Position numbers and translations under genes: made by a program. The notes below the pieces were generated by a model that saw nothing but the letters and a program-made list of their open reading frames with translations, made no database searches and was not told the DNA's origin. A stretch of 64,000 nucleotides of DNA, from the NCBI RefSeq assembly GCF_021249345.1, contig NZ_CP089588.1:744001-808000 (forward strand), read 5' to 3'. Source of the stretch: Halobacterium wangiae. GTDB lineage: Archaea > Halobacteriota > Halobacteria > Halobacteriales > Halobacteriaceae. Below, one piece after another: positions 18,444 through 23,377 of the stretch; the stretch's first letter is position 1; the number at the start of each line of letters is the position of its first letter.

Positions 18444-19115
18444 ATGACCGCGGAACTCCGCCCGGGCGTCTGGTGGCTCTCGCTGCGCGGCGTGAACGCC
18501 TACCTCGTCGAGGACGGCGACGACCTCACACTCGTCGACGCCGGGATGCCGTGGCAGGCCGGGAAGATTCGCCACGGACTGGAGGTCGCCGGCTTCTCGG
18601 CCAGCGACCTCGACCGCGTGCTCGTCACGCACTACGACCTCGACCACGTCGGGGGGCTACGGTCGCTGGTCGAGTCGGCGGGCGACGTCGAGGTGTACTG
18701 CGGTGCCCGCGACGCGGACGTGCTCACGGGACTCCGGAAACCGCCCCTCGGCAACCGGAAGGGGCTGTTCCACCGACTCACCGGCTTCCTCGTCCCCGCC
18801 GTCGACGCGCCGGTCCACAGCGTCGAGGACGGCGACCAGATCGGCGGCTTCGAGGCGATCCACACACCCGGCCACACGGTCGGACACACCGTCTACGTCC
18901 ACGAGGACCGCGAGGCGGCGATGCTCGGCGACCTCGTGCGTGCGAGCGACGGCTCCCTCGAACCGTCGCCTGCGCTCCTGTCGGTCGACACTGACGCCGT
19001 CGACGCGAGTATCAAGCGGGTGCTGGACCGTGCCCCCGACTTCCAGGCGGCCTGCGTCGGTCACGGCGACCCCCTGCGGTCGGGTGGCCGGGCGGCGCTC
19101 GCGGACGCTCGCTAG
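18444..19115 (+). CDS. Metallo-beta-lactamase-fold hydrolase
   Basis: The 223 residues include the metal-binding motif as THYDLDHVGG, where the canonical second His is Asp, then HTPGHTVGHTVYVHE and ACVGHGDPL, which carry later metal ligands. Members are glyoxalase II-like or lactonase-like hydrolases. The Asp variant of the first motif is seen in some of the family and should not abolish metal binding by itself. It is divergent from the methyltransferase and ends four bases into the convergent gene. Confidence 0.85.
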   Translation: MTAELRPGVWWLSLRGVNAYLVEDGDDLTLVDAGMPWQAGKIRHGLEVAGFSASDLDRVLVTHYDLDHVGGLRSLVESAGDVEVYCGARDADVLTGLRKPPLGNRKGLFHRLTGFLVPAVDAPVHSVEDGDQIGGFEAIHTPGHTVGHTVYVHEDREAAMLGDLVRASDGSLEPSPALLSVDTDAVDASIKRVLDRAPDFQAACVGHGDPLRSGGRAALADAR

Positions 19116-19684
19116 GCGAAGGGGCTGTCGTCGGGGTCGACGTCGTCCGGTTCCTCGACGTCACCGCGCCTGACCTCGCCGTCCTCGGTCTCGACGTACA
19201 CGTCGTCCTCGTAGCCGGCGGCGGCGTTCTCGAACGTCGCGTCGTCGAGTTTCTCGGGGGTGGTCGGCGCGTCCGGAACGCCGCCGGCCGGCCGGAACTC
19301 GCCGAGCGGGTCGTCGATGCTGATGCCGTGCGCGTCGAAGAATCCGGCGTAGCGGTCGTAGTGAGTGGAGAGTTCCTCGGGCGGGAACTCCATCATCTCC
19401 GCCCAGCCGTGGTTGTAGAAGTCGAAGTTCCCGACGACGTGGGTGATCTCGCGGGCCGAGGCCTCCGTGTACCCCTCCTGGAGGGCGGCGAGGTACATGT
19501 CCATCGTCGCGTCGAAGAAGCCCTCGAGGTGGTCCTCGCGCTCCGCGCGCTTGGCCTCGGGCGCCTTCTCGGCGAAGATACGGACGTGGAGGTCGACGAG
19601 TTTCGGCCGCACGACGTCGCGGAGCCCGGGCAGTTCGAGCGCCTTCCGGGACGCGAAGTGACGGACGTTCTGACGGATCTTCAT
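19112..19684 (-). CDS. Haloarchaeal protein, DUF6149-like
   Basis: A 190-residue soluble protein starting MKIRQNVRHFASRKALELPG, with a mixed alpha-helical N-terminal half and an acidic, disordered C-terminal third (TEDGEVRRGDVEEPDDVDPD). I believe it belongs to DUF6149, known only from haloarchaea; function unknown. It overlaps the MBL gene's 3' end by four bases on the opposite strand. Confidence 0.65.
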   Translation of the reverse strand: MKIRQNVRHFASRKALELPGLRDVVRPKLVDLHVRIFAEKAPEAKRAEREDHLEGFFDATMDMYLAALQEGYTEASAREITHVVGNFDFYNHGWAEMMEFPPEELSTHYDRYAGFFDAHGISIDDPLGEFRPAGGVPDAPTTPEKLDDATFENAAAGYEDDVYVETEDGEVRRGDVEEPDDVDPDDSPFA

Positions 19685-20150: not shown

Positions 20151-20169
20151 AAAAAAGCGGGAGTCCCGC
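20151..20169 (-). terminator. Hairpin plus T-run after hsp20
   Basis: On the reverse strand, just after the hsp20 stop, GCGGGA and TCCCGC form a six-base inverted repeat directly followed by six T residues. It is the clearest intrinsic-type terminator in the window and marks the 3' end of the Q/H/G-protein-hsp20 operon. Confidence 0.65.
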
Positions 20170-20170
20170 G

Positions 20171-20680
20171 TTACTGGAAGCCGATCTCGTGACGCCGTTC
20201 CTCCTCGTCCTTCGGGACGGTGATCTCGCAGACGCCGTCATCCTGCGTGGCGGTGGCTTCCTCGGGGTCGATGTGCGCCGGGAGCGAGATGCGGCGTTCC
20301 AGGCGCACCGGGCGTTCGGTGAGGAGCGGGCTCTCACCCTCGTCCTCGTCGAAGACGGAGTCCTCGGACCGGTCGGCAGTGAAGAACAGGTTGTTCGCGT
20401 CCGCGTGGATGTCGATCTGGTCCTCGCCGAAGCCGGGGACGTCGATGTAGACGACGACGTCCTCGGCGGACTCGACGATGTCGACCATCGGGACCGCAGC
20501 CGGCGTCTGTGAGCCGACGCTCTCGCCACCCCCCAGAGCCGGTGGCGGCATCGACGGCTGCGAGCTTCGCTGTTGCTGGCCGGACATCGGCGGCGCCTCC
20601 ATCGGTGGCTGGCCGGACCTGGCTGCCGAGCCGACGTTTCTCGGCGGGTCCTCCGGCGAGCGGTCCTGCTCTCGGGTCAT
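20171..20680 (-). CDS. Hsp20/alpha-crystallin small heat-shock protein
   Basis: Small heat-shock proteins are ATP-independent holdases that bind unfolding proteins. The alpha-crystallin domain spans about residues 65-165 (VDIVESAEDVVVYIDVPGF, then RRISLPAHIDPEEATA and CEITVPK), and ends with HEIGFQ. The first 60 residues are a Pro/Gln/Ser/Gly-rich, weakly charged arm (SGQQQRSSQPSMPPP), unusual for a halophile. It overlaps the upstream Q/H/G-rich gene by four bases (ATGA), so translation is coupled. It is a different protein from gas-vesicle GvpH. Confidence 0.9.
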   Translation of the reverse strand: MTREQDRSPEDPPRNVGSAARSGQPPMEAPPMSGQQQRSSQPSMPPPALGGGESVGSQTPAAVPMVDIVESAEDVVVYIDVPGFGEDQIDIHADANNLFFTADRSEDSVFDEDEGESPLLTERPVRLERRISLPAHIDPEEATATQDDGVCEITVPKDEEERRHEIGFQ

Positions 20681-21774
20681 CGGTCTCGCTGACCAGTCAC
20701 TCGGGAGTGTCGGCCCCGTCGCTGTTCCTGGCTCCTCCGGTCCTGGGAGCCCTGCTGTTGCTGGCCGTGCTGGCCGCCCTGGTGCTGGCCGTACTGCTGG
20801 GAACTCTGGCCACCCTGCTGCTGGCCACGCTGCTGGCCCTGTTGCTGGCCGTACTGGTGGGTGCCCTGGTGGGCGCCCTGGTGTTGAGTCCCCTGCTGCT
20901 GACCCAGCTGGCTCTGGCCGCGGTGCTGCTGGCCGTACTGGGTGTCCTGCTGGCCGGTCTGCTGCTGTCCGCGCTGCTGGCTCCCCTGGTGCTGTCCGGA
21001 GCGGCCGTGCTGCTGGCTGCCCTGTCCGGACTGGAACTGGCCCCCCTGGTGTTGCTGGGTCCCGTGCTGGCTGCCCTGCTGCTGGTGGCCCTGGTGATGC
21101 TGCTGGCCGCCCTGCTGCTGGTGGCCCTGGTGTTGCTGACTACCCGGCTGTTGCTGGCCGTGCTGCTGGCCCTGCTGGCCCTCGATCCAGTTCTGCTGGG
21201 AGTACTGGTCGTGCTCCTGGCTACCCGACTGTCCGTGCTGCTGCTGGCCGGCCTGCTGCTGCCCGCTACCGCGGTGGCCACCCTGGCTCTGTCCGAGCTG
21301 GCTCTGGTGTTCGGTAGTCTGGTGCTGGGAACCCTGCTGACCCATCAGACCGTGGTGCTCGGTGCCCTGGCGTTGCTGGCCCACCTGGTGCTGCTGGCTC
21401 CCCTGCTGCTGGCCACCCTGGAACTGGGAGCCCTGTTGCGGACTGCCCTGGTGTTGGCCCATCTGGCTCTGGCCACCCTGCTGGGGCTGCTGACTGCTCT
21501 GGTGCGGGTTCTGCTGCTGGCCGCTCTGGTAGGGGCTGTGCTGTTGACCACTCTGCTGTTGACCACTCTGCTGTCGCCCCTGGTGCTGGCCACCCTGGCC
21601 CATCTGTCGCTGCCCGCGCTGCTGGCCGCCCTGCTGGTGGCCCTGATGTTGCTGGCCCTGCTGGTGCTGGCCCTGCTGATGCTGCTGACCCTGGTGATGC
21701 TGCTGGCCCTGCTGTTGCCCCTGTCGATACTCCTCTGTGTGTCGTGACTGTCGGCGTCGGTTCTCGTCGTGCAT
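20677..21774 (-). CDS. Gln/His/Gly-rich low-complexity (prion-like) protein
   Basis: The 365-residue product starts MHDENRRRQSRHTEEYRQ and then consists almost wholly of Gln with Gly, His and Ser in variants of GQQHQ and SGQQ. Roughly two residues in five are Gln in the first hundred. There are very few acidic residues, which is striking in a halophile. The C-terminus is Arg-rich (RRSQEQRRGRHSRV). It has no hydrophobic core. The TATA-like GTTTATTC at 21824-21831 gives a leader of about 25 nt, and the stop overlaps hsp20. Composition resembles eukaryotic prion-like domains; a role in condensates or as an Hsp20 partner is inference. The opposite strand also has a long frame, judged a shadow. 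Confidence 0.75.
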   Translation of the reverse strand: MHDENRRRQSRHTEEYRQGQQQGQQHHQGQQHQQGQHQQGQQHQGHQQGGQQRGQRQMGQGGQHQGRQQSGQQQSGQQHSPYQSGQQQNPHQSSQQPQQGGQSQMGQHQGSPQQGSQFQGGQQQGSQQHQVGQQRQGTEHHGLMGQQGSQHQTTEHQSQLGQSQGGHRGSGQQQAGQQQHGQSGSQEHDQYSQQNWIEGQQGQQHGQQQPGSQQHQGHQQQGGQQHHQGHQQQGSQHGTQQHQGGQFQSGQGSQQHGRSGQHQGSQQRGQQQTGQQDTQYGQQHRGQSQLGQQQGTQHQGAHQGTHQYGQQQGQQRGQQQGGQSSQQYGQHQGGQHGQQQQGSQDRRSQEQRRGRHSRVTGQRDR

Positions 21775-22123
21775 AGTTGGAATCAGCCCCTCGTCGGGAC
21801 GACTCGAACATCCACGGGAACGCGAATAAACGCGGCCGATAGTTCAACCGAGTTCAGCCGGTAGAAGCCCTGTAGCACACACTTACCGGATTTCGTGGCA
21901 TCGACACACACACGCGAAGGCGCCACCCAACGGGCAGTCGTACGCGTCGTTACCGACGAAAGTCGGGCCTACTGGCGGTTTTTACGCCGGCGTCCCGGCG
22001 GTTCTTCGCCGGCTACCGGGAGCGTCCGAACGTAACGCACAGCGTTACGCAGAGGTGCCCCCAGGGGTCGCTACTGCCGGGCAGATAGCAATCCACTTTA
22101 ACCCTGAAGGCTTCACTCCGAGT
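21775..22123. other. Divergent intergenic region with palindromes
   Basis: This 349-nt gap separates the Q/H/G operon (leftward) and the FAD oxidoreductase gene (rightward). It holds the leftward TATA at 21824-21831, a CCGGCG/CGCCGG hairpin at 21995-22012, the palindrome CGTAACGC-ACA-GCGTTACG at 22031-22049 and the rightward TATA at about 22096-22101. I see no gene in it. Confidence 0.6.
22031..22049. promoter_or_regulatory. Palindromic operator candidate CGTAACGC-n3-GCGTTACG
   Basis: Two exact 8-bp arms with a 3-nt spacer lie about 50 nt upstream of the TATA box of the oxidoreductase gene. The form suits a dimeric helix-turn-helix regulator. No regulator gene is adjacent. Confidence 0.45.
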
Positions 22124-23377
22124 ATGAGCGAGTCGTACGTGATAATCGGTGACGGCATCGCGGGCAGTTCCGCCGCCGAGGCCCTCCACGAAGAGGCCCC
22201 CGAGGTCGACATCACCGTCGTCACCGACGAGGGTGAGACCCTGTACAATCGAATCCTCATCAAGGAGTTCGCGAAGGGGAAACTCCCCGAGGCGCCCATC
22301 AGCATCCACGAACCCGACTGGTACGACGAGCGGGACATCGACCTCCGGCTCAACACCCTGGTCACGGACGTCGACCCCGAAGCCCACACCATCCAGACCC
22401 ACGAGGGCGAGGAGATCTCCTACGACAAACTGCTGGTCGCGGCGGGCGGGACGCCAAACCAGCTCCCGATCGAGAACTCGGAGGCGGAGGGCGTCCACCA
22501 CTTCTGGACGTTCGAGGACGCGCGCCGCATCCGAAAGCACGCCGAGGAAGCCGACACCGGCGTCGTCGTCGGCGCGGGCCTGCTCGGCATCGACCTGGCG
22601 GCCATCTGCGGCGGCCAGGACGTCGACGCGAAGTACCTGATGCGCGGCAACCGCTGGTGGCGGTACGCGCTCAGCGAGGACGGCGCCGAGATCATCCACG
22701 AGGGGCTCCGCGAGAAGGGCGTCGAACCCGTCTTCGAGTCCGGCGCCGACCGCTTCGTGACGAACGACGACGGCGAGGTCGTCGCGACCGTCGACGGCAA
22801 CGGCGAGCGCCACGAGTCGGAGTTCGTCGGCGTCGCCATTGGCCTCGACTTCAACGTCGAGATCCTCCAGGACACGGAGGCAACCATCGACAACGGCGTC
22901 CACGTGGACGAGTACATGCGGACCGAAGTGGAGGACATCTACGCGGCGGGCGACATCACGCAGTTCTTCGACACCATCATGGGTCAGCGCGCCCAGAACG
23001 GGTCGTGGGGCTCCGCGAAACAGCAGGGCGCACTCGCGGGGAAGGTGATGCTCGCGGACAACGGTCACGACGTCGACCCCGATCCGTTCCGCTGGGTCTC
23101 CTCGTACTCCATCACACACTTCGACTTCCCGTTCCTCTCCTTCGGCTTCCCGACGATGGGCGACGACGAGTGCGAGCGCAAGTACAACGACGGCGAGTGG
23201 CGCCGCCTCACGTTCAAGGACGGCAAGCTCATCGGGGGCGTGCTCATCGGTAACCTCGCCCCGCAGTCGAAGTACAAGCAGCTCATCAAGAAGGAGGCCC
23301 ACGTCGTCGACCAGAAGGACGTCCTCCTCCAGGAGAACTTCGAACTCGACGAACTCGCCATCCCGCAGGAGCAGTAG
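22124..23377 (+). CDS. FAD-dependent NAD(P)H oxidoreductase, nitrite-reductase-like
   Basis: The 417-residue product is a pyridine nucleotide-disulphide oxidoreductase of the NirB/rubredoxin-reductase type. It has the FAD motif VIIGDGIAGSSAAEAL, the ATG motif as YDKLLVAAGGTPN, the NAD(P) motif VVVGAGLLGIDLAAIC and the late FAD motif IYAAGDITQF. The first 400 residues cover the whole fold and no [2Fe-2S] or siroheme domain is attached, so it is probably a stand-alone electron donor. The ATG at 22124 is 26 nt after a TATA-like TTTAAC, so the longer in-frame start is rejected. Confidence 0.85.
   Translation: MSESYVIIGDGIAGSSAAEALHEEAPEVDITVVTDEGETLYNRILIKEFAKGKLPEAPISIHEPDWYDERDIDLRLNTLVTDVDPEAHTIQTHEGEEISYDKLLVAAGGTPNQLPIENSEAEGVHHFWTFEDARRIRKHAEEADTGVVVGAGLLGIDLAAICGGQDVDAKYLMRGNRWWRYALSEDGAEIIHEGLREKGVEPVFESGADRFVTNDDGEVVATVDGNGERHESEFVGVAIGLDFNVEILQDTEATIDNGVHVDEYMRTEVEDIYAAGDITQFFDTIMGQRAQNGSWGSAKQQGALAGKVMLADNGHDVDPDPFRWVSSYSITHFDFPFLSFGFPTMGDDECERKYNDGEWRRLTFKDGKLIGGVLIGNLAPQSKYKQLIKKEAHVVDQKDVLLQENFELDELAIPQEQ

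Follow-up and report, generated by a model that had tools for sequence, protein, structure and literature searches.

A glutamine-rich protein encoded with Hsp20 in haloarchaea: a possible two-component sequestration device

In haloarchaea, whose salt-in proteome is acidic, one would hardly look for low-complexity proteins rich in glutamine, and the locus studied here raises the question of what such a protein does when its gene lies directly before an hsp20 gene. The two genes were found in Halobacterium wangiae, in the 64-kb stretch of DNA analysed in full (hereafter the window). The original prediction had described a 365-residue Gln/Gly/His/Ser frame with scarcely any acidic residue and an Arg-rich patch at its end, a four-base overlap with the start of an hsp20 gene whose product has a Gln/Pro-rich arm, a TATA box belonging to the pair and a hairpin-T6 terminator after hsp20. 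Each of these features was recovered on re-analysis, at the following positions (all on the minus strand).

21826..21846, minus strand: conserved promoter, TGAACTATC-N7-TTTAT, with one exact match in the genome, at this operon
21780..21805, minus strand: leader hairpin, core GUCCC...GGGGC at 21786-21800
20677..21774, minus strand: Q/G/H/S-rich low-complexity protein of 365 aa, first gene of the operon (open reading frame call and composition)
20677..20680, minus strand: ATGA stop/start overlap of the Q gene and hsp20, in 8/8 Halobacterium loci
20171..20680, minus strand: Hsp20/alpha-crystallin protein of 169 aa, second gene of the operon (PF00011, E=1.5e-13, residues 67-163)
20504..20680, minus strand: disordered Q/P/S-rich N-terminal arm of Hsp20, residues 1-59 (pLDDT under 50, no secondary structure)
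20228..20230, minus strand: Cys151 of Hsp20, in the motif GVC; kept without exception in the split and fused Hsp20s, with Leu (GVL) at this site in the 60 controls
20169-20151, minus strand: terminator-like hairpin GCGGGACTCCCGC followed by T6, after hsp20

The TATA-like TTTAT of the promoter (21826-21830) stands 56 nt before the ATG of the Q gene. A hairpin of the GUCCC/GGGAC type was present in all eight Halobacteriaceae leaders compared (window, L006, L007, L008, L010, L011, L012 and L018), with one two-sided change, to GUCUC/GAGAC, in L012; these eight sequences, too few for more, suggest a conserved leader hairpin. It lies just upstream of the Q-gene start and may be a stabiliser of the 5' end or a salt- or heat-sensitive element. 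Hairpin-T sites resembling terminators numbered three in the region, compared to a mean of 0.7 in shuffles, and scanning the window against Rfam and for tRNAs returned no matches.

The protein encoded by the first gene is composed of 150 Q (41%), 74 G (20%), 37 H, 30 S and 22 R among other residues, with 13 D+E and neither K nor C, for a net charge of +9 and a GRAVY of -2.29. Its C-terminal Arg-rich end, QDRRSQEQRRGRHSRVTGQRDR, was detected among the partners compared only here and in Halobacterium G008. Prion-like Q/N-rich domains are recognised by at least 30 Q/N in 80 residues, and the maximum reached by this protein was 42. No other open reading frame in the window, and no non-partner frame in 313 kb of related DNA that was fetched, attained 24 Q/N per 80 residues. 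Against the sequestration reading put forward below, the window protein is poor in aromatic residues (2.5%) and nearly devoid of Asn, in which it departs from many prion-like domains of eukaryotes. Pfam and NCBIfam searches with the protein revealed no family match. The Q frame looks to be coding, since changes at its three codon positions relative to Halobacterium G008 numbered 65/75/124 (in a rough alignment of repeats) and since its promoter, start, overlap and composition, together with the leader, are kept in other species.

The product of the second gene scored 51.1 bits against PF00011 over residues 67-163, above the gathering score of 20.8 for the family, and its predicted model has a beta-rich alpha-crystallin domain (ACD). 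This domain is common to archaeal small heat shock proteins (sHsps) of the Hsp14/Hsp16.5 type, and the nearest solved structures include 3w1z (Heat shock protein 16), 4yl9 (Hsp20) and 1shs (HSP16.5). By contrast to that type, the window Hsp20 has a Q/P-rich arm, the GVC motif and a Q-rich partner; against the Hsp14 equivalog NF041799 it scored 69.4 bits and its relatives 72-80, short of the cut-off of 100. The C-terminal I-x-I/V motif of the Hsp20 family is used in oligomer assembly. Its place is taken in Halobacteriaceae by IGFQ (as in the window, compared to IDIE/IEIE in the I-x-I type) or IAFQ; some other linked Hsp20s keep I-x-I/V, and controls carry IDI/IEI/IDV types. GVC (GMC once) was found in 23/23 split and fused Hsp20s and GVL in 60/60 controls. 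In a Cys-poor proteome, Cys151 might act as a redox or metal switch.

The spread of the pair was examined with a profile built from linked Hsp20s and run over 392 Halobacteriales genomes; the window Hsp20 (P0002) had found no relatives when used as the sole query against the genome contigs, and the profile did. Among the 26 best places examined, 21 proved to be split pairs with a separate Q-rich frame immediately upstream of Hsp20, the arrangement for which the original prediction had proposed a search, and the Q gene was seen in orthologous position and with like composition in 20 other genomes. The other five, distant members of the clade, have no separate gene and carry a low-complexity arm on Hsp20 itself: four are Q-rich, two of these being single proteins with about 220-300 residues of arm ahead of the ACD (L032, L098) and two having shorter arms (L036/L099, L101), and one has an R/E/P-rich repeat arm (L100 / L019, G019). 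This last arm, from the same family, is long and R/E/P/A-rich (EPRREAEPRREPRARRAP...), so that low complexity is kept and the chemistry is changed. A Q-rich frame was found at 0/60 lower-scoring control Hsp20 loci and at 0/4 of the loci of Hsp20 paralogues in the window genome, a contrast that does not amount to 86 independent trials and that follows ancestry, since linked Hsp20s were the source of the search profile.

Phylogenetic analysis of 60 ACDs, half of which (30) came from controls, placed the 26 linked Hsp20s in one clade (100/99) and, inside it, the 21 split-pair Hsp20s in another (97/83); many inner forks are weak on the 108 columns that the alignment offers. No strong member of the clade was detected outside Halobacteriales among 295 genomes sampled across the phylum. 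At the level of sequence comparison, these results show a dedicated haloarchaeal Hsp20 clade that is co-inherited with a Q-rich partner, or with such a module in its own chain. Most sampled haloarchaea are without the pair, which is thus dispensable.

Within Halobacterium, an hsp20 of this type was present in 8/13 genomes, and in all eight a Q-rich frame lies directly upstream with the identical ATGA overlap; hsp20 loci that lack a low-complexity gene, which had been named as a possible refutation of the pairing, were thus not seen in this genus. Profile matches include Halobacterium salinarum DSM 3754, H. bonnevillei, Halobacterium sp. TGN-42-S1 and CBA1126. The remaining 5/13 genomes have neither gene, and the conserved flanking genes (in the window, an FAD reductase at 22124 and a 'MKxxQNxxHFAS' gene at 19112-19684) adjoin each other. 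Since the pair occupies the same neighbourhood in L045, of another family, the probable history of these five genomes is loss of both genes, perhaps at a single stroke. In three Halobacterium genomes without the pair (L067, L068, L069) a gene for a trypsin/HtrA-like secreted protease lies one gene from the empty site, and in L068 it is apparently disrupted.

Across the relatives, partner proteins contain 23-52% Q and few charges, their composition being kept and their sequence not. Their full-length frames reached 27-61 Q/N per 80 residues, two falling below 30. A Q-rich partner is not peculiar to the window genome: Q/H/G, seen in the window protein and G008, is one flavour, and most relatives are Q/P/A-rich. 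Most Halobacteriaceae partners begin with an MxxQxxxQQPQLS-like segment and share a helical motif, VExADTxxLAxxLARRxGLTSQQLAQxxPQL, which scored strongly only at pair loci and is missing from the window protein and G008. Matches to the short partner motif A4 beyond Halobacteriaceae all had E >0.002 and were taken as chance. Partners from other families (L033, L034, L035, L095, L096 and L097; f5/f8) carry a distinct conserved helical C-terminal domain, LERTLEQANVYALENG...ERKLILRQSPFAES..., for which Pfam matches were weak and incoherent, with no confident family.

Published work on Halobacterium NRC-1 bears on this operon. The vng1801-1802 (hsp1) cluster was among those responding to loss of TbpD and TfbA, hsp1 dropping 10.3- and 15.8-fold, and its operon partner VNG1802 was described by the authors as without homology (PMC2121645). 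In a separate study, hsp1 rose 2.25-fold in low salt and hsp5 was the main heat-induced sHsp transcript (PMC1971269). An 18.53-kDa sHsp, named sHsp-2, was induced more than 2-fold by heat (PMC1475562); the Hsp20 of the H. salinarum pair, at a calculated 18,537 Da, matches that size, so sHsp names differ between papers. In H. salinarum DSM 3754, only one of the five sHsp genes found, that of the pair, has an overlapping Q-rich gene upstream. Because of this sHsp survey, the position near carB (VNG1814) and the consistent gene order, the two-gene hsp1 unit with its uncharacterised partner is very probably the orthologous operon. The Q-rich or prion-like nature of VNG1802, the spread of the pair and its fused forms are not mentioned in the NRC-1 paper (PMC2121645), and in a literature search on archaeal prion-like or Q-rich proteins beside Hsp20, of incomplete coverage, the prion-like partner of this pair was not found described. 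The module is real, conserved and largely undescribed in haloarchaea.

We favour, with confidence evenly balanced, a reading in which both genes belong to a single stress-linked operon for a two-component sHsp/prion-like 'sequestrase' that would work as yeast Hsp42 does, though divided between two proteins in trans. Its Q-rich chain, disordered and nearly charge-free, would self-associate through weak multivalent Gln/Gly/His/Arg contacts into a scaffold that forms reversibly upon a change in cytoplasmic salt, temperature or protein folding. Hsp20, with its own Q/P-rich arm, would join this scaffold and load unfolding proteins, which would be held in retrievable assemblies and not in irreversible aggregates; the prion-like module would usually be supplied in trans, by its own gene, and sometimes in cis. 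Sequence comparison establishes co-inheritance, a transcription-unit architecture in common, a dedicated chaperone clade and natural fusions; what we infer beyond it is that the Q protein and Hsp20 act jointly, one as scaffold and the other in client loading, with reversible assembly under stress. The functional pairing put forward in the original prediction is strongly supported by comparative genomics, and its 'client' is probably the wrong word, since co-inheritance and the existence of fusions point to a single device in two parts more than to a holdase with an aggregation-prone substrate.

Yeast Hsp42 is an sHsp sequestrase whose prion-like region drives sequestration (PMC13287201). Both systems are stress-linked and combine an alpha-crystallin domain with a disordered prion-like region, a combination that is made in haloarchaea by genetic linkage and fusions. 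They differ in that the prion-like region of Hsp42 is part of the ACD chain, whereas the haloarchaeal module is usually a separate protein of the same operon; the archaeal partner is Q/H/G- or Q/P/A-rich, and the prion-like parts are not orthologous. A broader proposal, which we advance tentatively and with some doubt, is that haloarchaea possess a dedicated, inducible prion-like condensate system, in which a Q-rich scaffold and a co-evolved sHsp, as separate or fused proteins, build reversible bodies for protein storage in near-saturated salt, having evolved apart from eukaryotic Hsp42 and from stress granules. The genetically fixed link to a chaperone clade of its own, with split and fused versions occurring naturally, would provide a compact prokaryotic model for the cooperation of chaperones with prion-like sequences. 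It also brings condensation at molar salt within reach of direct tests in H. salinarum, where published transcript data already tie the very probable ortholog operon to TbpD/TfbA and salinity.

Rather unlikely, in our estimate, is a hydrophilin or LEA-like role, in which the Q chain is a soluble, non-assembling shield against low salt, heat or drying whose only link to an ordinary holdase Hsp20 is co-expression. Hydrophilins are defined by more than 6% Gly and high hydrophilicity. With its GRAVY of -2.29, disorder and 20% Gly, the window protein agrees with this definition, but the family as a whole does not, as Gly is not conserved and makes up just 2-4% of partners L012, L029, L033 and L097. 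Conservation of composition rather than sequence would also fit such a protectant, as would the rise of hsp1 in low salt (PMC1971269). By contrast, a general protectant would not be expected to be tied to a single Hsp20 clade alone or to be fused directly to its members, and many partners have conserved helical segments.

Less plausible is that Hsp20 serves as a dedicated chaperone to a Q protein with another job, either structural or in RNA/DNA binding through its Arg-rich end, and keeps it soluble during synthesis; we regard this as improbable. It would explain the translational coupling, with the ATGA overlap and the Q gene placed first, and the window species does have a basic, Arg-rich tail. 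This tail is, however, present in no partner compared other than those of the window and G008, the fusions and the Q-rich Hsp20 arms point to a common function, and hsp1 responds to stress and to TbpD/TfbA. That the pair instead forms the coat of an inclusion, for example polyhydroxyalkanoate, in the manner of phasins and granule-bound sHsps, is very unlikely: the helical partner domain has a weak similarity to PhaP (E=0.049), but at 13.6 bits this is far below the cut-off of 109.3, no granule genes were seen beside the loci, and the window Q protein has no PhaP-like helical domain.

Finally, it is scarcely credible that the Q frame merely reflects repetitive DNA and that the real product lies on the opposite strand or does not exist. 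That strand does have an open frame of 412 aa, but this reading is opposed by the codon-position pattern of the Q frame, by the conservation of its start, of its distance from the promoter and of the ATGA overlap, and by the listing of vng1801-1802 as a responding cluster. Coding by the 412-aa frame (20509-21747, plus strand) was rejected on its substitution pattern relative to Halobacterium G008, since the third codon position of the Q frame falls on the first of the opposite frame. The frame is Leu-rich because it reads CAG and GGC codons in reverse, and automatic annotation could mistake it for a membrane protein.
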